This document shows positions 893-40,800 of a stretch of 64,000 bases of DNA, one piece after another. The translations under genes and the position numbers were made by a program. The first letter of the stretch is position 1. Each line of letters begins with the position of its first letter. Source of the DNA: Paramecium tetraurelia (taxonomy: Eukaryota > Ciliophora > Oligohymenophorea > Peniculida > Parameciidae); assembly GCF_000165425.1 (NCBI RefSeq), contig NW_001799233.1, positions 3,256 to 67,255 on the forward strand, read 5' to 3'. Below the pieces are notes generated by a model, which worked only from the letters and a program-made list of their open reading frames with translations, ran no database searches and was not told where the DNA came from.

Positions 893-1840
893 GAGAGTAG
901 TTTGCTGCAAAAACAAGATGTAGGCGCAATTTACAAACAAAACTATTTTTATTAAATAAATATCAATCAATTTTTATATTCTCACTGCATATTATATAAC
1001 ATAAAAGATAAGTGCACTGATTTAAGGCTTAGGTCTTAATAAAATATTATGAAACCTTTCATTAATGAGCATCAATTGATCAAAATAGAGCAATTGAGAT
1101 CAATTTAATTGTAATCAATTTTCATAAATATTAATATTGTATCAACCCTCCCTCGAATTACAAAAGTATTGAAACACATTTGGATATGGATTAATAATAT
1201 TATCGTATTTTATAACTGTTCAACAACCAGCAATCCTTCCCAACCCTCTTTATGAAAGCCTTGAAATATTATTAAATCACTATGAATGAAATTGCTATCA
1301 ATTATTAAGTTTTGACTCAGCAATATGATACATTAATTGAATGAATTGATCTGGAACAATTGTAATTCAAATTGTATTAATTTTCTGCTTCCTTACTCTA
1401 TCATGAAATTAATTTATTGTTTATTATTATTTAAATTAAGAATGTTTAAAATCTTGATTTTGATCTTTCTGATTGTTTATTCTTACTATTAATAAAAATA
1501 TTTAGAATTTATAGAGTTTTATCTTTAAAATCCTAAAAGGTTTCTAAACTCAAAATTTATGGGACTATTTTTCTTAAGATGTTCATTGAATGTAAATTTT
1601 ATTTATTATATGAGTTAGATTAGTAAAAATAGTTTAATTAAATTAAACTTCAGTTCATAAGATATTTGGAATATAGCATTTATTAAAACTAGCATAAATT
1701 AAATGTGTTATTGTGTTATTGAGGAAGTTGAAGAAAGAATTTTAATATTATTATGATTTAGTTATAATTTAAGTAGTTTCTCTTATTAATTCCTTTCTCA
1801 ATAAATAGTCTAGGATTGATACACATTTAACTATTAGGTT
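893..1840. other. intergenic, no supported gene
   Basis: This is very AT-rich with scattered TGA in every frame. A minus-strand open run of about 64 codons near 1100-1290 is within chance expectation for a one-stop genetic code. I see no RNA gene or repeat. Confidence 0.5.
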
Positions 1841-2047
1841 ATGATATTTAGTTAAGAAGAAAATACTATAAAATCTCTTAGGGAATTACTAAGTAAAATT
1901 TCACTTAATCATTTGAATCGGGAAGGATAGCAATATATGCTAACAATTTAAGTTGAGGAAAGCTCATTTAATCAATATTGTCATTATTTATTTTAGTTAA
2001 TACATGATGAGCATTAATTGATGTATTATTAGATATTTAATAATTGA
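1841..2047 (+). CDS. possible small protein, 68 aa (weak)
   Basis: An ATG-to-TGA frame of 69 codons with no intron and protein-like composition (starts MIFSQEENTIKSLRELL; charged and glutamine-rich). It lies about 90 bases before the CxCxxCG gene on the same strand, so it could also be part of a neighbouring or decayed model. No family was recognised. Confidence 0.3.
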
Positions 2048-2136
2048 ATTTTATGAATTAATCTCTTTTCTCTTTTAACTTGAAAGCACTTTTACCTATG
2101 GAAAATTACTAATTAATACTTAATGAGTAAACAAGA

Positions 2137-2867
2137 ATGAACAAATACATTCACAGTTAGAATACTATTTAGATTAAGGAGTTGGATTTAGAATAAATGA
2201 CGAGAAGAAAAAGTTGTCATTGTGGTCAATGTGGGGCTCAAAGTTAATTTTAGTTCAAAACGATGAATATTCCTCTTAAGGTTAGGGAAATACCAAAAGA
2301 GCAGGAATTTAATATACCTGAGTTAATAATAACAAAACCAGAATGTATAAATAGAAATATTTTATAGCTAGAATGAGTACCTTCTATAAAAAATCTTCTT
2401 TTAAGAATTTGCAAATCTTAGAATCTAAAGATTAACCAAATAACACTTAATTGTCCTTAAATATTCATGGTCTTAAACGAGCTTATAATAGATAAAATAC
2501 ATTATTGAAATTAATAACAGATGGACAAGAAAGGTCTAAAAGAAGAGACAGCAGTGGATTATTTTCATCATCTGAGTTCCAATCTTTAAATTCTTTGAAA
2601 TCTTTGAATATTACAACAAGTCCTACACATTCATTCTTATAGAATCAAAAGAACTCGATTTAGCCTAAAAGTCCTTTAAGTCTATTTTCTCCTAAAAGAA
2701 GACATAAATAGATTGATAACAAATTCTTAAGTGCAACCAATAAAAGGAATTATAATACTTATATGATAAATTCGAATAAATAATTATTGATCAAACCATT
2801 AAAGTTATAAACTTCGCTTTCCACCCTTGGAAGTTCATTTCCAAAACTAAATAACAAAAAGTAATGA
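2137..2867 (+). CDS. CxCxxCG-motif basic protein, 235 aa
   Basis: The first exon runs from ATG 2137 and carries the motif RRKSCHCGQCG (about 2203-2235) followed by a phenylalanine/glutamine segment, as in three tandem genes at 17.3-20 kb. A 23-nt GTA..TAG intron (about 2346-2368) joins it to a Ser/Lys/Asn-rich tail ending at TGA 2865. Spliced length is 236 codons. The three cysteines plus glycine suggest a small metal site, but that is inference. The rest is low-complexity and basic. It is the only plus-strand copy and carries a single motif, where two of the tandem relatives carry two. Confidence 0.75.
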
Positions 2868-3056
2868 TTGTATTATATTAATAATTTTTCTATTAGATAT
2901 GATTATAAATAGAATACAAATTGATAATCTTGTATCAATTATTATTCCAATTCTATTTCAAACAAGTATTAAATAAATTAATAAATTATTTTTATTTATT
3001 TTGGATATATACAGGTTTAATACAAATAAGAATATCCAAATACATAAACATGATTC

Positions 3057-3458
3057 TCATTTCGAAAAAACAATTAGATCTCTATGATTTTCAACTTGTT
3101 GAAGCAATTCATCGATATCTTAGTTGGGTACTTCCATATCCTAGGCAATATTTTTGAGATGGATCTTAAATTTGTCAAATTATTAATTTGTAATGTTCAG
3201 ATTTTTGTGGACTTCAATTAAATCTCTATTTAGATTAAATTTATGTGAATACCTGCCAGTATATTAAGTATTTTTATCACCCATCATTTGAGAGAAGAAT
3301 CGCTTTTATTGATACCTTACTCTACTCATGTCTGCCTTCAAAAATTTATCACGAAGAAGCTTATCAAAGAGCACTTTGTAATAGAATTAATCTATAAGTT
3401 CTGATACTTATTAGTCTCCTCCAAATTTTTCATACAAGCATTTTTTTTAATTATCCAT
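3057..3458 (-). CDS. truncated haemoglobin, 133 aa
   Basis: An intronless frame of 134 codons matches the group I truncated-globin pattern throughout. It has the N-terminal LYEKFGG, a B-helix FYYKVL with a tyrosine at the ligand-pocket position, a KRFFSQMMG segment, and the YTGRYSHKF to LIEVHKNLNIT region that holds the proximal haem histidine (about His84). Length is typical of ciliate truncated globins, which bind O2 or NO through a 2-over-2 helical fold. Its start lies only 15 bases beyond the stop of the RING/B-box gene upstream on the same strand. The 3' side faces the CxCxxCG gene. Confidence 0.85.
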
Positions 3459-3473
3459 TATTAATTTTTATTA

Positions 3474-5482
3474 TCAAATATTCACTAAATATCCAACGCG
3501 CTTTAAATCTTCAATTTTCTTTCTAGCTTTGGTTGCATTTATTAAAGTTTGGTTTAGGTATAAGGATTTGGGCAACGAACTACCAGAAGGGGAATTTCTG
3601 ACTAAAGAAATAAAATAATCTAGAGTCCTTTCAGTTATCATATTTGACGACAAATGTAGACTCTAAAAACACTTAATTTGTATTTTATACTAGATAATCC
3701 AATAACTTGCAGGCACCTTCGTCAGTTATTTTATTCCTCACCAATTTAAGTTGTTTAACTCTCTTCGATATTCTGAGAATATCACCAATAAATTATAACC
3801 CTTCATCTCCCAAGTCTAAGTTAATAATAATTAAAGATATACCTGCACTTGAGAAATCAGCTATTTCTAAATTATCATTTTTAAATGACTGCCAGACACT
3901 TTCAAATTTCTCATTGATCTTAAACTTTTTTTCCTCTTGCAATCCTAAATTTTAGTATTAGGACTAATTCCTTGTCTGATGGAATTAACCTATTCTATAT
4001 CCCTCCTACCAGGGCTTGGTTATTAAAAAGATCCTTTTAATTTCTCTAAAGCCCTAATCTAAATTCTCTCTGGTTTTGTTGGAGTGGTTGATTAAATATT
4101 TTAAGAAACCGACACAGGTTAAATTTCTTTTAGTTCCTTCAACCCAGATCCCATTTTATTTTTAACAAAATCTTCTTATTCTAAACTACTTCTATTTGGA
4201 CTTCTCACTTGAGTAATATTTGTGGTTTCTTCCATAAGACTCTCACTCCAATCTGCCATAAATATATCTTTAAGTAGCATTGGTTCATCTTAACAAAAAC
4301 TTGAGAAAACATCCTAGCCACATAATTTACTAAAACTCTCATTTCTTTTAATGTCCTACAATAATGTTGAATCTGTTAAAGAATTGGAAGTTTTTAAAAT
4401 TTAACTACTTTTGGTCATATTGGTGGGATTATTGACTCTACTCAATTATAATGTAATGGTAAAGAGATTATCAAAACTCTTATCGATTTCTGTCTTTTTG
4501 AGATCAACTCTTAATTTCTTTATTTTGATATTCTATAGTTTAAGATCTAATTATTTTTATATCTTCTCCAATTCCTCTTGAATTCCCTTTCCCTTGTCTA
4601 CACAAGCATAATCTTGATTATTTAATAAATCTAAAGGCAATTCTCCATTTTCTGTTTTTGTTGAGAAATAAACCAATCGATCCTTAGCTGTAATCTTCCA
4701 TAATTCCGCTTAAGATAATGAACTTTGCAACAATTCTTTAATTTACTTTTTTGTTTATTGTTCTAATGATTATGTTAATGTGGTTAATTATTCAATAAGT
4801 CTTTGTTCTTTGAGATCTAATAATTAATGCAGTTCTTTGAATTTTTCCTTGACTGTATTATGACTCTCGGCTAGTACAATTGAAAATCTTTCCTATAGTG
4901 GTTCAAAATATTTTGACTCAGTTAATTCACATTATTTTTAGAGTATCTTTTAATATATCTGCATTATATTTTCAGCTTTTTGGGTTATCTCTTTTACAAC
5001 GTCATCAACAGAACGAACCTCATGATGTCGATGTTATCCAAATAAAGCACATCTTGTACAAATTCTTACTTGATCTGTAAAACATACTATTTCCAATTTT
5101 TCTAGATGTTCCTAGCATAAATCATTTGGAATATCATTTGAAATTAAGTTGTTCAATTAGAGTTGATAACCTATATCACTATCGTCATTTCTTGCTGATT
5201 ATCTACTTTACTAGTATTAGGCTTTATGTTTAATGACCATTTTTAACAATTAGCAGTTCTTTGGAAATTGTGAGATGTCACTTTTATTTTTAGCCATGAT
5301 ACTTTTATAAATAATCAGTTTACCCATCTTCTGGACACAATATACTTTTTATTAATTAACATTTATTTAATACAAATTTAACATATTGTATGTCCACAAT
5401 CTGGAAGCATCAATGGTAAATTGTCATACTCATTAAACATCATTTGGCATTCTGGACATATAAGTTCTTCTATTTACTACAT
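3474..5482 (-). CDS. RING, B-box and LRR protein (TRIM-like), about 640 aa
   Basis: In order it has an N-terminal RING finger (CPECQMMF, then CGHTICQIC, then CPEDG), the segment FPKNCQLLKMV usual after such RINGs, a B-box zinc finger (CQEHLEKLEIVCF to HRHHEV), a long coiled coil, and C-terminal leucine-rich-repeat-like segments. RING/B-box/coiled-coil is the layout of TRIM ubiquitin ligases, so E3 activity is likely. Introns of 22, 20 and 28 nt are clear. Inside the RING loop the frame shifts by one base near 5345-5365. Either a 16-nt intron or a one-base indel in an A5 run would repair it. Confidence 0.82.
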
Positions 5483-17280: not shown

Positions 17281-18186
17281 TCATCTGTAGATACTAGCCA
17301 GCGTCTTGAAACTATCTTTAAGATGAATTGATTTATATGTTGATTAACCCTATCTTAATTTGTTGAGTTGAATTGGATATAATTTAAAGGATCGAGGTGA
17401 TGATTATGTTGGTTCAGTTTTAACTCTATGAGATGGAAATGCCGAATATCTTTAACTGTACTAAAATATCTTGGTTTGAGATTATTCTAGAAGTAATTTA
17501 GTAGTTCTCGAGACAGATTTATATTTGTTGATAGGCGACTTATTTTAACTTACATATGATATTTTGATGTTTTCTTATGAAATATGAGATTTTAGTTTAT
17601 CTTAAAACTTATGTCTTCTTAACTTACTGCTTTGATTTTTTATTTATTATAAAAACTTATTAATTTTGTCAAAAAATGGATCATTTTAATGTCTGATTTA
17701 TTTTTCACTCATTTTCCCACATTAAGTACAATAACAACTATATCTTCGTCTTCTATTTATATTATCATTTTTGGACGGCTATTTTATTTATTTCACTATC
17801 TCATCAAAATCCTAATTGGATGTCTTTAGCATTTTTAATGTTTAGACTATCGTTTTGCTTTTACTATTATCTTGGATTCCTCTTCTAAATTTAAGAATAG
17901 CCACATCTTCCATTAGTTGAGTTTGCCTTCTTCTTTTTTCTCTCTTCTCTATTTCATGAATTGATTGCTTAGTTTTGAATTCAGGCAAAATGTTTTTGAA
18001 TCTAGTCTAGAATTTATTCATCGATCCAAATTCATCACCATAACAACTAATTCTTCTGGTTTACCCATGTGAATAATCCAAAATATACTTACTTTCGAGA
18101 TTTACAAAGCTTTGACAAAATTTATTTTTTTTTTGAACTATTTCTCTTTTAACAGTTACATTCCTTCTATTTCTGTACCTCTTCAT
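17281..18186 (-). CDS. CxCxxCG-family protein, tandem copy 1, 301 aa
   Basis: An intronless frame of 302 codons. The family motif is RRRRYSCYCTQCGKMSEKQ in mid-protein (plus-strand position about 17715-17747). An earlier segment, RRISCYGDEFGSMNKFQ, looks like a worn copy of the same motif that kept the first Cys but lost the others. The rest is basic, Gln/Lys/Ser-rich and probably disordered. It is the first of three head-to-tail minus-strand paralogues, each separated by about 50-60 bases. Confidence 0.75.
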
Positions 18187-18233
18187 ACGTAACCTTATTT
18201 TTATAATAAATATTAATATTTAATTATAGACAT

Positions 18234-19040
18234 TCATTATCGATTACTAAATTTTGGATTATATTTTTAAGTCTCATAGATATTTAGTATTTCAATTGTC
18301 TTCATATAGGAGCTTTTCACAATTGGAAGGTTTAGTTTCTTTTTGTTTTCGAGTTTCGCTCCAAATTCTCTACTACTAGAATTTGTCTTTGTAATTTGTT
18401 TTCCTTATTCACTTTTCACAATATTTCTATTTTATAATCCTTCAACTATTTATTTCTTAGGCTTTACTAATGATCTTCTATTTAGTTTATGTACAACTAG
18501 GTTAGCCAGATTGCAAATGTTCTTATTATTTTAATTATTCTCTCTTTCTTAATCATCATCGTATTATACTTATCTTATCGGACTTATTCCTTTAAATATT
18601 TATTCTAAATTCTATTTTCTAATGGATTTGTTGATTTTTCCTCGATTGATTTATATTGATTTGCAAAATTCTTAAAACTTAGTATTTAAACCACATTCTT
18701 AACAATCACAACTTTTTTATCTTTTATACTGTTATAAAGTTTGTAAACGTTAAGAATTTTAATCATTACTATTAATCCCAATTTTAATATTATCATAACT
18801 GATCTGTCTTTAAAATGAAGACTTACATTCAAAATTTACATTACTATTTATTTTTGAAAATTATTGTATGTAACTAGATACATTCATATGCTTGAATTAA
18901 AATTAATTTAATCTTCCACAATTATTACAAGTACAACTTTTTCTTCTCTACTTTTATTCATCTTAAATATTCTCTGTTTGGACAAGATAAAAGCTTCTGT
19001 GTTTTTTCTATTCTGAGACAATAATAGAAGTGAGGCACAT
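18234..19040 (-). CDS. CxCxxCG-family protein, tandem copy 2, 268 aa
   Basis: An intronless frame of 269 codons with two motif copies, RRKSCTCNNCGRLNQFQF (about 18915-18948) and QKSCDCQECGLNTKFQ (about 18690-18722). Each is preceded by basic residues and followed by an F-Q pair. Between and after the motifs the sequence is low-complexity, with Asn, Gln, Lys and Ser. The start is the first in-frame ATG. It closely resembles copy 3 in layout, supporting tandem duplication. Confidence 0.75.
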
Positions 19041-19097: not shown

Positions 19098-19964
19098 TCA
19101 AAATATGCCAGATTGTTAATTATGTTTTTTGAAATTATCTCTTTAGTAATTTGAAATGGGTTATTTCTGAGTGAGTCTTTATTGAGGACTTCGATTTGAG
19201 TTAAGTTACAAATAAGGTAGATGTTTTCTTTTATTTCCAAGAGGAGATAAGATATCAGTTTTTTATCTTGATGAGATTTCAAAAATATTTAAAGATTATT
19301 AATGATGTATTAATTTTGGATTTTTAGTTCTTTTTAATTGAAATTTAGTCAATAATTGGTTATCATTTAAATCCAACTCAATCATTCTTTTTTTTAGATG
19401 TCTAAGTTCACTATTTTTGGAGGGGGAGAACTATTCTGTGTACAACTTTCTGAATTAATGCCTTTTAATAGTTTTCTTAATTCTAAATTAGTTAGTTGGG
19501 GATAATTATTATTTTTTGATCATTTGATAATTTTAGCATTTTACTTAAAAGTTATTTTGAGTTCCACATTCAGAGCAATCACAACTTTTTCTGTATTTAG
19601 ATCTTGCATTATTCTCAAAAAGTAAGTGTTAAAAATTAGTGATTGATTTACTTCGAAAAAAAAATGATAGATTATGTCCAACTTATTTTTTATGTTTTTG
19701 AAGTTCTTATTGATTTTGAAGTTTCTATTGTGTGATATGATTATTTTTAAGGAAATTGATACAAGTTGAGAGATTCATTTGTGCATATTGAAATAGACTC
19801 ATTTTTCCACACATTTGACAATAACAACTTTTTCTTCTATGTTATTTTTTATATATTTGTGAAGATCTTTCTTCCTCAAACGAGTAATCCTTAAAATGAT
19901 GACCCTTCCAAATTTCAGTGTTTTATTTTTACCTCCTGATAAAAGGCACATCGAATTATTACAT
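19098..19964 (-). CDS. CxCxxCG-family protein, tandem copy 3, 288 aa
   Basis: An intronless frame of 289 codons with two motifs, RRKSCYCQMCGKMSLFQ (about 19806-19838) and YRKSCDCSECGTQNNFQ (about 19562-19595). A short acidic stretch (SFEEERSS) precedes the first motif. The C-terminal 150 residues are basic and low-complexity. Its start is only 27 bases from the stop of the MYCBPAP-like gene upstream on the same strand. Possible roles are nucleic-acid or metal binding, inferred only from composition. Confidence 0.75.
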
Positions 19965-19991
19965 TAATTATAATATATATATGTATATATA

Positions 19992-22900
19992 TCAAGGAGT
20001 ACTATCTTCTTCAAAATACTACTCCTCATTAATTTCAGATTCTGGTTTTGGCGGATACTCGTCGAGTGTTTGGATATGAATTTAATTTCCAGCTAGAAAT
20101 GAAAGAGTGAAATCTTAATCTTGGATAAAGAAATCTGCTAATAATTGTTTCACCTTATATTTAGATGATAATATTTACTTAATTGATCTTAACTTTCTCT
20201 TCTTCAATTTATTCTTCCTCTTGTTCCTTTTAATCTTCTCCTGCCTCACTTTAAGGGAATTAGGATCCCTTTTAACTTGGCTCTGGAGCCTATTCAATTT
20301 CTTCCTCCTTGCCTATATTTTGAAAATCTTCTTAATTAAGAACCTTCTCCAATTTTTCACCAATAATTGTGACTACACAATCCTAATTGAAATCATAAGG
20401 AACTTAATGGCCTTATTTTTAGGCATGTTAATGTCTATCCTTCTTTTCTTGATTCATCTCATAAATAAAGAATCCTAGGTCTGTATTTGTGAGGTTGAAA
20501 ACAGGAACATTAATCTCCTTTGTGGTTTTAACTAAAAAAATAATGAAGATTATTAATACTATTAATAGGTTCCTTAGGTGGTTCTTCTTTGAGACCTTTC
20601 TTGTTACCTTTTCCACCTTTCTTTTCTTTAAGTTTTTCTAATCTCTCTCTTTCTCTTTCGGCTTCTTCCTCTCTTAATTTCTTTAGTAAAGCAATAGCTT
20701 CGAAATCAGGAACTGTTATTTATTTTTAAATATTGTATAATGCAAGATTGGCATCATCTATCCAAAATAATCTTTGGGCATTTTAGATTTCTTATTTAAC
20801 AATTTCAATAGTCTTAGGTCCATAATCTAAGAGTATCTTTCCCTCTTCTAGTTAGATATTGCCTTCAGGTACAAAAGGTGCAATACTGCTAGTGACAATC
20901 TAGACATGTTCTTAATTGGCTGGATCATATCCTTCAGGAAGTGTCGTAATTAAATAATCTTATGGGCAAATTAATCTTGCTTTTGGCTTTGGCTGTTCTG
21001 TAAGATGACTGATTCGAGTTAACCTTTAAGGAGGTTTTTCAGTTGATTCATCTCTCAGAACATTAAGTAGGTTTTTGATAACCTCTCTAACAGCTTCAGA
21101 CACAAGATCGCTTTGGATCTCATACATTGTTAAATAGAATGCTAATCCCAATTTCCCTAATAAGACTATGGATGAAAGATGTCCAGATAATTAATCAATT
21201 GTTAACAGTTTATCACCGCTCAGATCTCCACCTAGAATGAGAGTTCCATTTCGATCTTAACATCCCATTAGATTATGACATAAAATATGAATATCTTTGG
21301 CAATAGCTGATGATAGAATGGTTTAATCTGCATTCATATGGATGATTGAAGGGTAGAATCTTGAAAAGAAATTCACTCTGTCTCCTATTATGTAAATATT
21401 GCCATAAGGTAATAGGGTTCTGTATGGTGTTTTGGATTCGATGTCAGGTTCTTCCTCAGAGTAACCAACTTCATCTGGATAGAAGAACAGATTTTCTAAT
21501 ACTAAAACACTATTTTCTTAATAGGTTTGAGTTTCTAATTGTTCATCCAAATTTTCAATGATAGCATCATTAAAATAGACAGGACATTCAACATGAGTCT
21601 TTAACCATTCGTAAAAGAATTTAGTTGATGATGTAAACTTATACTTTCCACTTGGATTGTCATAACTTACAAGTAATACAACAATCTTGGCTTATCTTTC
21701 CATCAATAGTTTGATAGTGTCAACGCATTCTTAAAGTGTAGCTTAATCTAGATGACTTAAATCATAGTTCTTTTATTAGACTTATTAATGATAATTAAAT
21801 AGTACCTTATACAACTTCAACTTCTTTTTATTTGACTGGTTTACCTTTGCCTTTTTTCTTAGCTGCTTCTTAAGCCAATCTTTCCTTTTCCAACCTTTCT
21901 TCTTCCAATCTCTTATTCTCCTCTTCTTATTCTTTGAGTAATGTTTATTCAAACTTTTCTTTAAGTTCATAAACATCTGGTCTATTAGCTAGTTTTAGAT
22001 GGATCTTTAATCCAATTTTCTTTCCTTCAATATCTGAATCTTAAATTGTTTTCTTTCTAAGAAGATCATAAAAGTAAGTAGATTAAAATCTTCTCCTTCT
22101 AAATACATTCCATTTTAATTCTGGTTTCATCATTGCTCCTACTTATAATAATTGTCCATCATTTTCTAATTTGATAGCTGCTTATGCCAATGCATCAGCC
22201 ACTTTAGCTCCCAATTTAGTTTTATACTCCTCAATCAATTCCTTTTCCATATCATCATTCCATTTCTTCTTTTTTGCATTCTTCAACCAATTTGCTTTCA
22301 TTTTATTGAATTCATCCAACTTAGCTTTAGCCTTTTCTGGTGTTAAATCCTCAGGTTCATGAAAAGTGTATTCCCACATTTGCAATTCCTTACGCATATC
22401 CTCGGATAATTGAGGAACTTAATTAGCCACATCCCCTAATAAATCCTTGACTACACTGTAAATGGGATTTCTAGAGATTGGTACTTTCTTTGCCAACTTA
22501 ACCCACAATTCCAATTTACGTAATACCAAATCTTTAACCTCTTCTTCATCTATAGTATGACATGATTATCTTAGCAATTTAACATCTCCATTCCAAGGTA
22601 TATCTTATTTTAATACTTAACATATTTCATCTGATGAGAAATTAAAGAAGTTCATAATTTCATGAGTAAACCATAATTATTCACCCAAATTGAGTTCTTC
22701 AAATTCGATTTTAAATTATTCAGGATCACTTAGATCTGGTTTAGGTGGAGGTGGTGTTTTGACTTCTTCAAAGATATCATCAACTATTTCAGTGGCTATT
22801 TTCAATGCAAATTTGTTTTTCACTTATTTCTGAAATTCTTTTCTTCCAATTGTTAATTCATCATCTATAAATGCAATGCCTGTCAATTTCAAATTAGGTA

Positions 22901-23438
22901 ATTAAGTCAAACATGGAGGCTCACATTTCAATTCCCATTCCTCATTAAATACACCTGCTTGTTTTGATAGAAAACTAAACACAAATTTAATTCTTTCTCC
23001 TGGTTTGATAACATTTTAATCATGATGACAAAAGAACCTCTCTTCATTTATATCTTAGATTGAATTAGGTTATTTCCTTACGCTCTCAATTCTCTTCCAC
23101 TCATAATAAATAGCCGCACTTCCATTATTTGAAACAACTACATTATCATAACCGACTGTTTCAGTTTTAACCAAAAATGATATATGCTCTTTCTTCATTT
23201 TCAACTTAACATATAGAATTCGAATTTATACCTAAGGACCCTCTACTTCATTCTTCTTCTCCTCCTCATCTAATTCTGAAATTCTACTGATTGGCCCCTT
23301 TGGTGTACTGACCCTTGGATCCTATTTATCCTACCCTCTACTAATTTAGGATGGCACACCTGATGTAGGCTTCTTCACCATCAATTTAGAACCCATGGAT
23401 TAACCTGGATTGAATGACTAAGTTAATGAAGAATACAT
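19992..23438 (-). CDS. MYCBPAP: MYCBPAP-like protein with phosphoglycerate-kinase-like domain, 1122 aa
   Basis: Residues about 1-550 match MYCBP-associated protein, a central-apparatus component of motile cilia: an ASH/MSP-like beta domain (GYDNVVVSNNGSAAIYYEW, then HHDQNVIKPGERIKFVFSF), a helical middle and a charged coiled coil. Residues about 557-860 read as phosphoglycerate kinase, with ECVDTIKLLMERQAKIVVLL, VLVLENLFFY, LILGGDLSGDKL and ILLDYGPKTIEIV. The kinase substrate Arg/His motifs are not conserved, so it is probably inactive. A C-terminal beta-rich segment ends the protein. Introns are 25, 28 and 25 nt. The start is the first ATG in frame; a coding-looking segment from ATG 23581 might belong to it, but no intron joins them. 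Confidence 0.82.
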
Positions 23439-23620
23439 ACTCCTCCTCCTTGTAAATACACTTTCCCATCTAGTCCTGGGACCTAAGAATATAATCTAGA
23501 TTATTTTTATTATTCATCTGCTTTCTTTCGAATGTAGAATGTCTTCTTTTTTGGCTAAGTTTGATTCATACTATCGTCCATAATAATAAAATATTATTTT
23601 ATATTACTCAAGTAATCATT

Positions 23621-24142
23621 TCATTTGAATTTCTCCAAACCATCATCCACTTTCTGCCTATGGACTTCAAACATGCTTCTCAATTCATTATTATTCCAAT
23701 ACTGTCTTTTAACAACTATAAAATGTGATTATAATTATTCAAAGAAGAAACCACTAAACAATAATTAAATACTTTAGTAAAATTATTTTGATGTACAAAT
23801 ACTACTAATAATCAAATGATTCTATTAAACAAGTTTAAGCATTAGTGAGGTTATGTCTAGAAAACAATTTTGATGTATTATAAATAGTAAATTATTAAGA
23901 TCTGCTTTGTTATTGAATACAATGACTGATTTGACTTATTCCCCCAATTATACACAATTCGTTAAATTAAAGTAAGACTGCTGTTATGAATCACTGTAAG
24001 TTTTATTTATTTACATACATCAAAATGAAATAATAATGAGCCTCAATAGTATCTATGTAGTATACAATAAAATAAGGTAAACTGTTTAAGCAATAACAAT
24101 CTTCAAATATCTATCACCTTTTGAGGATCTGATAAGATTCAT
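23621..24142 (-). CDS. unknown protein, about 159 aa
   Basis: Two segments join through a 25-nt GTA..CAG intron (DSQQQSYFNLTN side) into a long open run ending with EVHRQKVDDGLEKFK and TGA 23621. The N-terminus (MNLIRSSK) lies in another frame; a 17-nt GTG..AAG segment would connect it and give exactly 160 codons, but that is shorter than normal introns here. The sequence is moderately hydrophobic with no clear transmembrane helix. No family was recognised. It is divergent from the lectin-like gene, with 69 bases between starts. Confidence 0.5.
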
Positions 24143-35139: not shown

Positions 35140-37869
35140 TCAACAACATTAATTTAATATAGTTTATAATTCTACTTAAGTGACGGGCTTAGAAAGGAAA
35201 TGATCCATACCACTCTCAAATCCTAGTTTTTTAGTTTCCTCATCAGAAAATCCACTGCACCCAATAATTGCACATTTACTTATTTTTTTCTCCTTCTCCA
35301 TCATTCTAATTAATTTTGAAGTCTAATATCCATCCATCATCGGCATCTGTATATCGATAATCACACATCTGATCCAATTGCAACAATATTCTTAAGTGCT
35401 TTACCATCCCTTTAGGAAATCTAAGGCCTCCTAACCACTCTTTGCCTACTAATAACGGTACTTCAAATTCTTCAATTAATAACCCAAGATCATCAAATTT
35501 ATTGGTTCATCATCCACAATCAAGATTCTTGGACATGCACAATTTTCATAAGACTCTTGCACAGGATCCTCTTAAAAATTGTCCTCTTCACATTAGAATT
35601 AATAGATTGTGCTTTCATTTTCCTCTATTTTCTATTCACTGATTACCTTGGCTCTGTATATTGAAGCACTCATTGGTTATAATGTTAACTAATCTCTCTT
35701 AGCCACCCTTACTATTGAAAGATTGCTCTCCTTCCTACCAAAATATTTTGTGTCTTAAGATTAATGAACAGAACTCTTAGTTTCGTTTTAGTCCAATATT
35801 TTAAAGATAAACCTTGTTCCTTATCCCAATCCCTTAGATTCAACCTGTAATCCAACATCTCCTCCACTCAATTTTTATGCCAACACATTACTTATCATCA
35901 ATCCCAAACCCACACCTTAAGTGTTTAAATGCTTTGAATCTTCCAATTTCCCAAAAGGTTAGAATAGTTTCTTAATATCTTCTGGCTGTAATCCTACTCC
36001 AGTATCTTCTACTGATATTTCAATTAATTTTGGTTGTAATAATTTGGCTTCCACCTTTATTCCTCCAGTCTTTGTGAATTTAGTAGAATTGTTAATTAAA
36101 TTCAATATAATCTATTGAATTCTCTATTGATCTGATTTTATTAGATTTGGTATTTTTTTATCATATTTCAAACTAAGTTGCAGATTCTTAGCACCTACAT
36201 TAAAAGTCATCATAGCTATTGTATCGAAAAGCAGGGTTTTAATTGCAAACTCTTAAAATGTTAACTTAAATTTTCCAGCTTTTAATTAAGCTAGATCAAG
36301 CAAATCATTAGCCAATCTCGAAATCGACTCGGCTGAGCTTTTCAATGGCTTCAAATACCTTATATTAATATAAACTACTTACTTTTTACTGGTTTCTTTA
36401 TCTTGCGAAAACTTTGAAAGTAATTGAGCACTTATAGCACATATAGCACCTAAAGGGTTTCTTAATTCATGCGCAACTTAAGATAACATTTTCGATTTAT
36501 TTGAATTTTGCTGTTATAAAACTTTATACTAATTAAATAATGACACATCTCTAATCATTAATAGAACATTTTTCTTGTTCTCATAAACATAAGCTTTAAT
36601 TGTTATTTAAATCAACAATCCAGCAGAATCTTCATCATCTGACTGATCTTCGCGCATTTCATTAAGAATTTCTTCTTTGGATTCTTCGATCATACAGAGC
36701 ATCTTTACTTCTTTACCAAATTTAATCTTATCTTATCCCTTCTATGTCTTTTAGGAATATTAAGACATTTATCTTTGATAAGGGGATGGAGTGCTAGTCT
36801 TCTCTTGCAGTGCCTTTTCAATTTCTTGGCTTAAGGTTTCAGCCTTACTTAATTCATATTCATAATAATTGTAATATGTTTGTTCATCTAATTGTAAGAA
36901 ACAGTCTTTAATTAAGGAGTTCTCTTCATTGAGTTATTATTAGAATTCATGAGAATTACTTTTTAATTTTCTATTCAGTGCTGCAAACATTTTATCAAAT
37001 TAGGCTTGTTCACCAAACTAAAATTTAGAGGAATAATTTTTCAATTCATACAGTCTTTTTGGAATTAACTCTTCGGATATAGGTTTTCTCCCCAATAGCG
37101 ATCTCACTTGATTATTATGATATTCAATTTTATTTTAATCATTAATAATTATTATGCCTTCTGGAAATTGATTGAATAGAGTTTTATAGAAACTATTTTA
37201 ATATTCGATTTGTTCACGAATTGATGCTTCTCTTTGTATTTGTTATTAATGATGCAGTTGTTGACCCAAGGACAATATTTAAACATGATTTGATTCCTCA
37301 TCTAAAATTTAAGCTTAAGGGCTATCTAATTTCTCAGTAAAACTGCGAGAACTGGGTTTTTTAGATGTTTGTTGTTTATGCTGATTCCTCATAGTCTTTT
37401 CAACAAATAACTAGTATATTAATATGAGGGTATATAGTATTTCCCCACATATCAATCCAATTTATGAAGAATCGAGAATTAAGTAGAACGTTGTTAGATT
37501 GACTGAAGCAATCACAACGAGAAGAAAACCCACTCTAACTATTTTATTTGGTAAAATTGTATCAACATCTAATTGAATTGTGAGACCAAGCCAAAAATAT
37601 TAAAATCTACTGAGAAATCCATCATTTTTCAATCCCATGTCAACACTACCTAAGCAAAACAGATTGAGGACTTACCATAAGGATTTACAAATTAATTACG
37701 AATGCTCAGCATAATTTGAAATGTATCTGTTTAGAGGCAAAGATAAAACCGTCAATAAGATGCTGAATATAACCTAAAAGTATTCGGTGTCGTCATTCGC
37801 TATTTTTATAATAAGTACCATTATAAAATAAGTGAGTTGAATAAATACTCTCAAATAAACATTTTTCAT
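35140..37869 (-). CDS. membrane hybrid histidine kinase, 901 aa
   Basis: A two-component sensor. Residues about 1-165 hold several transmembrane helices. A PAS-like middle follows (FNQFPEGIIIINDQNKIEYHN). The HisKA box is LSQVAHELRNPLGAI (phospho-accepting His about 467). The ATPase domain has NLINNSTKFT, VEDTGVGL and TQGVGLGLMIS. A receiver domain ends the protein: ILIVDDEPINLM, phospho-Asp in CVIIDIQMPMMDG (about 831) and the conserved Lys in LSKPVT. One 24-nt intron is present. The start lies 11 bases from that of the divergent gene. Hybrid kinases usually pass phosphate to a separate phosphotransfer protein, none of which is seen here. Confidence 0.93.
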
Positions 37870-37880
37870 TATATTTTATT
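37870..37880. promoter_or_regulatory. 11-base divergent intergenic spacer
   Basis: This is all that separates the predicted ATG of the histidine kinase (minus) from that of the giant membrane protein (plus). Any promoter and both 5' leaders must overlap the two coding regions, or one start is wrong. For the kinase a Met 16 codons further in (37822) would widen the gap. Confidence 0.4.
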
Positions 37881-40800
37881 ATGTTTATTATATTATTCAT
37901 TACGCACATACTTATTGATGTAGCTTGTGCAGGAACGATATCTCCATCTATTTTCAAAGCCTATTAGACAACAGACACTACTTTTTCAAATGAAGTAACT
38001 TCACTCAAAATAAATACGCAATATCTCATCAGGTTTGAATTTGATTTACCAACTACTCTAAGTGTTAGCACTGATTACATTAGAATAGATGTAGTTGGAT
38101 TTAAATCTATGGCAAAGTTCTTTTAATCATACTAATTTACAAATCCCTCTGCTGATGGAACTACTTTCCTTGAGTTCAAGGCTGATACTTCCACTAAAAT
38201 TCAAACACCACTTATAATATTTTATGCCACTACAGGTGCATCGACAAAGACACATACATGTTCTGCTTTAAGTTATAGAACCCCTGGAAGTACAACACTT
38301 GATACCCCTACTAAGACATTCACAATCATAGGAGGATCAATAACGTTTAGTAGCTCTATTAGTGTACCAAATAAGGTTTTTGGATAAAAATCTCTTTATA
38401 TCATTAGCCTCAACTTTGAAAATTCATTATCAGAAGGAACAAATAAATATATAACCTTTCCAAAACCATCAGGTTTAACAGCTGACGCAACGATCTCATG
38501 TTCAGGAACGCCATCAACCACAATCAGCTGCACTTGGGCCACTGGAACAAACTTGATAACAATAACAAATTTGGATTCAACTAAAACATAAACAATATCC
38601 TTAGAGTTCACAAACCCTCCTTCCCCTACTTCGAGTGTTACTTTTAATACTCTTATCACTTATATTGACACTTTTTAAGTTGATTCAAGTAGTACATCTT
38701 AAATAGTGACTGGATACAATGATGGAATAATAACAACATTATCTCTTGAAAGTGGAACATAAAAAGTAGGTTAAAGTGGTTCTTATTTAAAATACAAATT
38801 TACAAGTTTGAATGATATTGTAACTGGCTCTATTATTTAATTAACTCTGCCTAGTGATATTCAATGGAGTACAACATCTCCATCCTGTTCTTGGAATACC
38901 GGGAGTGTAACAGCATGTTCTTCTAACTTTGTTTCAACATAAGTTATATCGATAACTTTAACTTTATCTGCCCCAATACCTGGAGGTACATCATTAATTT
39001 TAACAATTAATTCAATAAGAACTCCATACACATTTAGCCCTTCCACTGGATTTTCATTTATGATCACTTAAGGCGGTGTATAATATGATTAAAATACAAA
39101 TTTTGGAAGTTTGACTATGACTGAACAAAGTGGAATCACTTTAGCATTTTTTAGCAGAACAGAAAATAAAAATGGTGCTAAATCTGATTATAAATTTTCA
39201 ATTAAATTTGATACTAAATAACCTAGTGGGACTAAAATAACTTATACTCTTTAAGGATATGATTTAAGTAATGTTAATGCCGTTGACTTTACTGGTTCTA
39301 CCTAATTAACTTCTCCAACTACTTTATTAGTTATTAGCACAGCGTATACAATTACATTTTAACTCAGTTCAGAATTGAATGAGAATTAAAATTATGATAC
39401 AATAATATATAAAATTGTAAATAAAAATAGTGCTGGTACAATAACAGCTGAAACCACAAAAAATAATTTTAAAATTTCAACCACTGATAAAGGCACGGCT
39501 GGTACATTACCAAGTTCTACTCCAAATGAAATTACTATTGTTAACATGATTTAAGAAAAAAAATTATTAGGAGTTGTAGATAGTTATTAATTTAGAATTA
39601 CTTTATCTAATTTACTCTCTGCAGGATCTACAATTATTGTGACTATGCCAGATAACTTCTCTGCTGAGGATGTTGATTGTACAACATATGTGGATAATAT
39701 TGAGGGGTTGACAGTGGATACTTGTTCAGTTAACAGTAAAGAGATTACAATAAAGATAAAAATTGCAATTTAAGTTAATACGATATAGTTTCGATTTAAT
39801 AGTTTAATTAGGAACCCAAAGATTTATTCATCAAATTATCAATTTAAAATAAGAACTCAAAAAGATAACGCTATCATTGATGAACTGTTAAGTTCAGATA
39901 GTGCTAAATTATTAGAATTTAAATTATTGTGTGCTCCTACTTCTACAGTATTTTGTAAAGAATGTGATGCTTAAGGTAAATGTTTATCTTGTTATTCGGA
40001 TACTTCAATAACTCAATATATTTATTTCTTAAGCAATTAATGTCTAAGTACTTGTGGATCAAAGTACTATAGTGATTCTAGTAATAAATGTTAAGGTTGT
40101 CCAAATTATTGTTAAGAATGTACAAGCAGTTCATTATGTTAAAGCTGTGAAAACGAGACAACTTAAGAGATTAAGAATGGAAAATGTGTATTGAAATGCA
40201 CTGAGAACTAATTTGATTTTAATGGTATTTGCACTCCTTGTAATGAGAATTGCAATACTTGTGTTGATTAAAGTACCAAATGCACATCCTGTGGTGAAAC
40301 TAATAATTTACTTTATCAAAACAAGTGTGTATCTCAATGTCCAACAGGAGTATTTTAGGTAGGGTTTTCTTGTATTGCATGTACATCACCTTGTAAAACA
40401 TGTGACACTGGTCCAACTATATGTCTCACTTGTGTTGCTAACTATTATTATAAAAAGGCATCGCTAAGTTGTGTTTCTGATTGTGGTAATAGATATTTCA
40501 AGGATGGAAGTGATTGCACCTTGTGTTCTGATCCTTGTAATAATTGTTTGAGTAACACTATATGTGTTGATTGTCTCACTGGATACTACTTTTTTAATAA
40601 CAGTTGTGTTTCAACAGTACCGAATGGTTATTATAAATCAGGTACTACTTTGAATAAGTGTCCTGACATTTGTGGTAATTGCATTTCAGAAACTGAATGT
40701 ACTTCATGTCCAACCAATAAATACTTGTTAGCAAAACAATGTTAAGACAAATGTCCTGATAAATATTATTCATAAAATTTTGTATGTTATGCTTGTGATA

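Follow-up and report, generated by a model that had tools for sequence, protein, structure and literature searches.

Two genes of the phosphoglycerate kinase (PGK) type have been described in the ciliate Tetrahymena thermophila, one of them canonical and the other, TTHERM_00856750, with a part related to MYCBPAP (2020 review, PMC7729029). The available portion of that review treats the second gene as a PGK isoenzyme whose expression rises at 6-18 h of conjugation, suggests for it a role in conjugation, transcription or the macronucleus, and makes no tie to the ciliary central apparatus. It is the only report of a MYCBPAP-PGK fusion in the literature searched, and no other paper found in that search names TTHERM_00856750. 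Here we describe a gene of the same kind in Paramecium tetraurelia, located in a 64,000-nucleotide stretch of contig NW_001799233.1 (the window), in which a MYCBPAP domain and a PGK-like domain are joined in one spliced frame. The gene probably encodes, judging from its sequence, the ciliate MYCBPAP/FAP147, the C2a scaffold of the ciliary central apparatus, equipped with a non-catalytic structural module derived from PGK. In both ciliates a MYCBPAP-related and a PGK part occur in one protein beside a canonical PGK gene, a comparison made from the published description of the Tetrahymena protein (PMC7729029).

For the MYCBPAP region the relatives of known location are FAP147 of Chlamydomonas and MYCBPAP of mammals. 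FAP147 is the scaffold ("rachis") of C2a, running between C2 protofilaments, with FAP65 and FAP70 assembling around it (PMC9113940), while in the mouse loss of MYCBPAP leads to collapse of C2a, and both N- and C-terminal fragments of the protein bind CFAP70 (PMC13345628). It is the MYCBPAP region that these proteins have in common with that of Paramecium, residues 431-567 of the mouse protein matching residues 139-274 here and residues 440-583 of FAP147 matching residues 137-277; the FAP147 and mouse MYCBPAP chains in the PDB, of 976 and 932 residues respectively, are absent from the matches of the C-terminal half at E <= 10. An earlier reading of the window made without database searches (the sequence-only reading) had named other ciliates and algal central-pair proteins as places where the same fusion might be met. 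As to its spread beyond this genome, which is known from the literature only, the fusion does occur in another ciliate, Tetrahymena (PMC7729029), and was not seen in the solved algal and mammalian chains, which match the MYCBPAP region only.

Enzyme-type domains are no strangers to the axoneme. The central-apparatus proteins CPC1/SPEF2 (adenylate kinase), FAP42 and FAP246 (guanylate kinase) carry nucleotide domains of this sort, and differ from the Paramecium protein in belonging to the C1b projection, in having other enzyme folds and in being described as able to control nucleotide levels (PMC9113940). Enolase is likewise among the central-apparatus components (PMC9113940), and the C1b projection holds enolase and possibly phosphoglycerate mutase (PMC7999657). 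In the available text of PMC8175508 and PMC7999657 the word "phosphoglycerate" refers to the mutase or a metabolite and not to PGK, and it is absent from the available text of PMC12297659, PMC13345628 and PMC9113940. A further comparison is offered by PGKL of Trypanosoma brucei (Tb927.11.2380), which is likewise multidomain, is axonemal and has a PGK domain minus the catalytic residues (PMC4106842, PMC7729029). Its domains follow the order PGK-CNB-HTH (PMC4106842, PMC7729029), whereas the Paramecium protein has no CNB or HTH family among its Pfam matches at E <= 1; on the published domain order PGKL is ruled out as the same protein, and it is probably an independent case.

The MYCBPAP-PGK gene and its domains

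Pfam domains were called on the spliced protein with hmmscan using the curated cut-offs, and five families were listed at E <= 1. MYCBPAP (PF14646) matched residues 101-274 (E 8.1e-25, 88.1 bits against a cut-off of 24.5, profile positions 220-404 of 439) and PGK (PF00162) matched residues 595-924 (E 1.4e-21, 77.4 bits against a cut-off of 27, profile positions 28-310 of 379); the remaining three families fell under their cut-offs, and none of the five was a CNB or HTH family. The PGK stretch was recovered in a six-frame search of the 69-Mb genome (E 6.8e-18) and by hhalign against a custom profile that combined 15 bacterial PGKs with a canonical one from the same genome; residues 596-926 aligned to it with a probability of 97.5%, an E value of 8e-12 and 20% identity. 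In the PDB the MYCBPAP region matched mouse MYCBPAP (9ijj, E 2.8e-12) and Chlamydomonas FAP147 (7n61/7som, E 7.2e-8). Matches there to the PGK part were PGK enzymes, the best E value being 1.9e-5 with the full protein as query and 7.6e-6 with its C-terminal half. At E <= 10 the C-terminal half hit 35 distinct chains, every one of them a PGK, and neither FAP147 nor mouse MYCBPAP was included.

The fusion proposed by the sequence-only reading is therefore real, the PGK profile search that it had asked for giving a match above the cut-off. Its domain limits had been drawn too widely. The MYCBPAP character given to the whole N-terminal half is borne out by the PF14646 match and is confined to residues 101-274, hmmscan finding no match for residues 1-100 or for the first ~220 profile positions. 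The PGK domain, thought to cover both lobes, was recovered for the most part (595-924); at the two ends of the profile, ~28 positions at the start and ~70 at the finish have no significant counterpart.

The gene lies on the minus strand and consists of five exons which, read with the ciliate code (code 6, TAA/TAG = Gln), encode 1,162 amino acids. Within the spliced frame 56 TAA and nine TAG codons stand for Gln, and the sole TGA is the terminator; introns 1 to 4 measure 23, 25, 28 and 25 nucleotides (nt), with GT..AG borders in all four. A duplicate of the gene, L011, is present elsewhere in the genome. The start had earlier been placed at 23438, which falls within intron 1; a 5' exon that encodes MDDSMNQTQPKKKTFYIR... 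and is conserved in the duplicate moves it to 23581. The 25-nt intron linking the two halves (21805-21781) reads as an in-frame GT..AG junction, just as had been claimed. The features of the gene are as follows.

23441..23581, minus strand: exon 1, residues 1-47, the actual gene start; open in code 6, with MDDSxNQTQPKKKTFYIR kept in L011
23418..23440, minus strand: intron 1, 23 nt, GT..AG; an intron-like GTA..TAG stretch stands at the same place in L011
21806..23417, minus strand: exon 2, residues 48-585; MYCBPAP domain (101-274), a further region, and a charged linker at the end
21781..21805, minus strand: intron 2, 25 nt, GTACT..AAG, at the MYCBPAP/PGK-like junction; a 24-nt GTA..TAG stretch stands at the same place in L011
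20560..21780, minus strand: exon 3, residues 585-992; PGK-like domain (595-924), then a charged stretch
20532..20559, minus strand: intron 3, 28 nt, GT..AG
20179..20531, minus strand: exon 4, residues 992-1109; expected site of the end of the PGK C-lobe, without detectable PGK similarity
20154..20178, minus strand: intron 4, 25 nt, GT..AG
19992..20153, minus strand: exon 5, residues 1110-1162 and the TGA stop

PGK residues and nucleotide loops

An alignment with the 15 bacterial PGKs was used to read nine substrate and nucleotide residues of PGK that are situated within the matched part or close to it; numbering and roles are those of human PGK. All nine are present in every one of the bacterial enzymes, and seven of them are replaced in the Paramecium protein. 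The equivalents of R38, H62, R65, R122 and K215 are T599, S623, N626, F683 and L771, and those of N336 and E343 are D927 and N934, the last two lying at the extreme edge of the matched part, where hhalign instead pairs N336 with I925. Two are retained, R170 as R725 and K219 as K775. Outside the nine that were counted, the GGxMA loop has L792 in place of its first Gly and retains the other as G793, N25 is aligned to N589, beyond the matched part, and D23 falls in a gap.

In PGK the motifs RVDFNVP, GGGD and STGGG lie within the first ~28 and last ~70 positions of the profile. When these ends were tested as sub-profiles, comparing the observed score with 500 shuffles, no significant counterpart was found: four tests returned a match, for which 59, 86, 61 and 120 of 500 shuffles were as good, and a fifth returned none. 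Both the GGGD and the STGGG loop are consequently undetectable, in agreement with the earlier remark that no GGGD loop is seen. The sequence evidence supports the view that the PGK-like part is a pseudo-enzyme which has lost its catalytic residues.

Candidates for the missing pieces were considered and rejected as unproven. PGK beta-strand 1 appeared by eye to be convincingly present in exon 2, where phmmer placed residues 501-521 (RKKTIQDSDIEGKKIGLKIHL) on residues 2-22 of 1php below threshold; shuffles reached the score in 59 of 500 for residues 480-594 and in 86 of 500 for residues 400-594, and with residues 1-594 or the complete protein as target the sub-profile gave no match. Similarly, "TIIG" (1044-1049) and "LSFLAGNQIHIQTL" in exons 4-5 resemble by eye IVGGGD and STGGGASLELL, and here shuffles were as good in 120 of 500 (residues 925-1162) and 61 of 500 (residues 1000-1162), and hhalign of residues 925-1162 gave a probability of just 0.2%.

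Duplicate gene, selection and other loci

A six-frame, exon by exon search of the 69-Mb genome, in which five candidates were scored, found two MYCBPAP matches, the window gene and its duplicate L011 (G000:C163:464800-472300). Both are fused, so that no MYCBPAP match without a PGK-like part was found among the candidates scored. In L011 the MYCBPAP part again precedes the PGK-like part and the intron between them is at the same place; downstream, the two copies have in common a stretch of 80.7% identity (L011 6466-7499, window 18283-17254). The same domain order, the same intron place and the shared downstream stretch identify the pair as a segmental or whole-genome duplicate, and because the duplicate keeps the two-part order and the intron, two separate genes are unlikely. 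On this sequence basis the earlier suggestion of one gene rather than two is likely to be right.

Codons of the two copies were compared with a Nei-Gojobori script, one and two codons being skipped for gaps or stops, to give nonsynonymous (dN) and synonymous (dS) rates. Over the PGK-like part (residues 590-930, 340 codons) dN was 0.0108 and dS 0.482 (dN/dS 0.022), and from the PGK-like part through to the protein end (571 codons) dN/dS was 0.025, a span that includes exons 4-5, which are thus also constrained. The PGK-like part has been under strong purifying selection between the duplicates. A stretch of ~1.5 kb (residues ~110-590; window ~23230-21770, L011 ~2770-4240) is near-identical in the two copies, with a dS of 0.08-0.10, flanked by values of 0.44 upstream and of 0.26 rising to 1.0 downstream. 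Further upstream, window 23965-24046 and L011 1278-1361 show 79% identity over 86 columns; in the duplicate this stretch sits in a long open frame at L011 86-2422 that looks Kelch/EGF-like by eye, a gene whose counterpart in the window seems to have been lost.

Other PGK matches in the genome are located on C23, C201 and C209, together with a frame-broken one on C226. The C201 gene, the sole copy read through, encodes 419 residues with the full motif set once its three exons are joined. The copy on C226 (L012, G000:C226:218500-222800, ~1472-2602, minus strand) is split across three frames and is apparently a pseudogene. Two contigs of Planctomycetota metagenome-assembled genomes (L013 and L014) encode PGKs that share, over 260 residues, 60-61% identity with the canonical PGK of the ciliate, which could possibly reflect transfer of the gene or a type of PGK common to both; the other 13 bacterial PGK loci are 36-54% identical to it. 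Four pattern matches in viral contigs included no relatives (0 of 4). Within the window, two adjoining minus-strand open reading frames (17284-18273 and 19101-19991) lack a Pfam match and share the Cys motif SCYCxxCGKMS, a related SCDCSECG motif recurring in the second, and 35143-37896, minus strand, encodes a hybrid histidine kinase (PAS, HisKA, HATPase and receiver domains), here in a ciliate.

Readings of the PGK-like part

An axonemal location in C2a is suggested by the known place of the family as C2a scaffold and by the occurrence of CFAP65-like genes for a C2a partner, and it is because of the FAP147/MYCBPAP literature and these loci that the gene is taken as the ciliate C2a scaffold. 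In the genome search two CFAP65-type Ig families matched the same three loci, on C3, C69 and C177; the second of these families also matched C15 more weakly (four places in all), and the first matched 61 places in all, other loci included, and gave a sub-cut-off signal in an Escherichia coli control. In such a scaffold the pseudo-PGK would be an added rigid folded block bearing contacts to other proteins, such as CFAP70, CFAP65 or the heads of the radial spokes, and its placement relative to the microtubule would be a guess only.

Several observations count against a structural PGK module in C2a, or complicate the evidence for it. The placement of C2a proteins differs between mouse sperm and Chlamydomonas (PMC13345628), and the two solved members of the family, FAP147 and mouse MYCBPAP, give by sequence no sign of a PGK-like part, so that the position of the module in C2a is unreadable from solved structures. 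AlphaFold produced poor models of exon 3, whether the 15 bacterial PGK rows were supplied (predicted local distance difference test, pLDDT, 54.6; predicted template modelling score 0.46) or the single sequence was used as a control (pLDDT 39.2). In Foldseek searches of the PDB the row-assisted model had 60 matches at E <= 0.001, and the best 50 of these were PGK throughout (E 3.2e-9 to 5.5e-6, template modelling scores 0.35-0.42), values to be read with the bias that the PGK rows lend the model; for the single-sequence model nothing reached E <= 0.001, and the 50 matches listed for it included no PGK. As the rows favour a PGK fold and the control found no PGK, structure was given no weight. 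As assembled, L011 contains frame-shifting insertions (1+1 at 2841/2856, one at 4354 and one at 4998) in addition to three bases at 2921 and a 1+2 pair at 3703/3732, and after the first insertion the upstream frame reaches a stop behind L011 3076. This broken frame represents either a recent onset of decay or assembly errors, and dN/dS is an average over the period in which both copies were intact; moreover, the near-identical ~1.5 kb looks like gene conversion, which complicates the estimate.

It appears unlikely that the PGK-like part acts instead as a ligand sensor, a non-catalytic domain which binds nucleotide or phosphoglycerate and by hinge closure tunes C2a to the local energy state. 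The retained R725 and K775 would suit such a function, as would the company of nucleotide-handling domains in CPC1, FAP42 and FAP246 and of enolase in the central apparatus (PMC9113940), but the equivalents of R38, H62, R65, R122, K215, N336 and E343 are replaced and both the GGGD and STGGG loops are undetectable. Where the sequence-only reading had left a choice between structural pseudo-enzyme and nucleotide sensor, the residue loss argues for the former, and with seven of the nine residues replaced little speaks for sensing. Still more doubtful is a role of the pseudo-PGK as a signalling part of C2a, in which the hinge of PGK and some of its ligand pocket would have been kept and would close on a glycolytic ligand or nucleotide, linking the energy state of the cilium to the contacts between central apparatus and radial spokes.

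We regard it as improbable that the PGK-like part is a degenerating, functionless relic of an enzyme that once served glycolysis in the flagellum, an origin that has been proposed for trypanosome PGKL. The catalytic residues are gone and the duplicate carries frame-breaking short insertions in the assembly, both of which would be expected of a relic; a dN/dS of ~0.02 over the PGK-like part is not, and the same fusion in Tetrahymena (PMC7729029) implies that it has long been kept, whereas trypanosome PGKL is poorly conserved across species (PMC4106842). The chances are slimmer again for the role suggested in Tetrahymena, that of a moonlighting PGK, nuclear or linked to transcription, which would act in conjugation and in development of the macronucleus, since that idea, although the rise of TTHERM_00856750 expression at 6-18 h of conjugation accords with it (PMC7729029), rests on the Myc-binding name of a protein now assigned to the central apparatus (PMC13345628, PMC9113940), and the catalytic residues are absent in Paramecium. 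An active PGK tethered to the axoneme for local ATP production is scarcely credible: the Pfam match above cut-off and the enolase and possible phosphoglycerate mutase on C1b (PMC7999657) would agree with it, and are opposed by the replacement of seven of the nine residues and by two undetectable nucleotide loops. Two neighbouring genes misjoined, or a chance profile match, are just as hard to credit in view of the in-frame junction across a 25-nt GT..AG intron, the duplicate with the same order and intron place, E values of 8e-25 and 1.4e-21, and the Tetrahymena fusion in print (PMC7729029).

The Paramecium gene is the second ciliate MYCBPAP-PGK, and because the fusion is already in print for Tetrahymena (PMC7729029) its novelty is modest; what is new is the evidence for a PGK part conserved as a pseudo-enzyme, whose most likely location is C2a. 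In Paramecium the fusion is strongly selected with its active site lost, which takes it out of metabolism and into the architecture of the central apparatus. If the axonemal place is true, this would be a second lineage, besides the trypanosomes, in which a dead PGK has been built into the axoneme.
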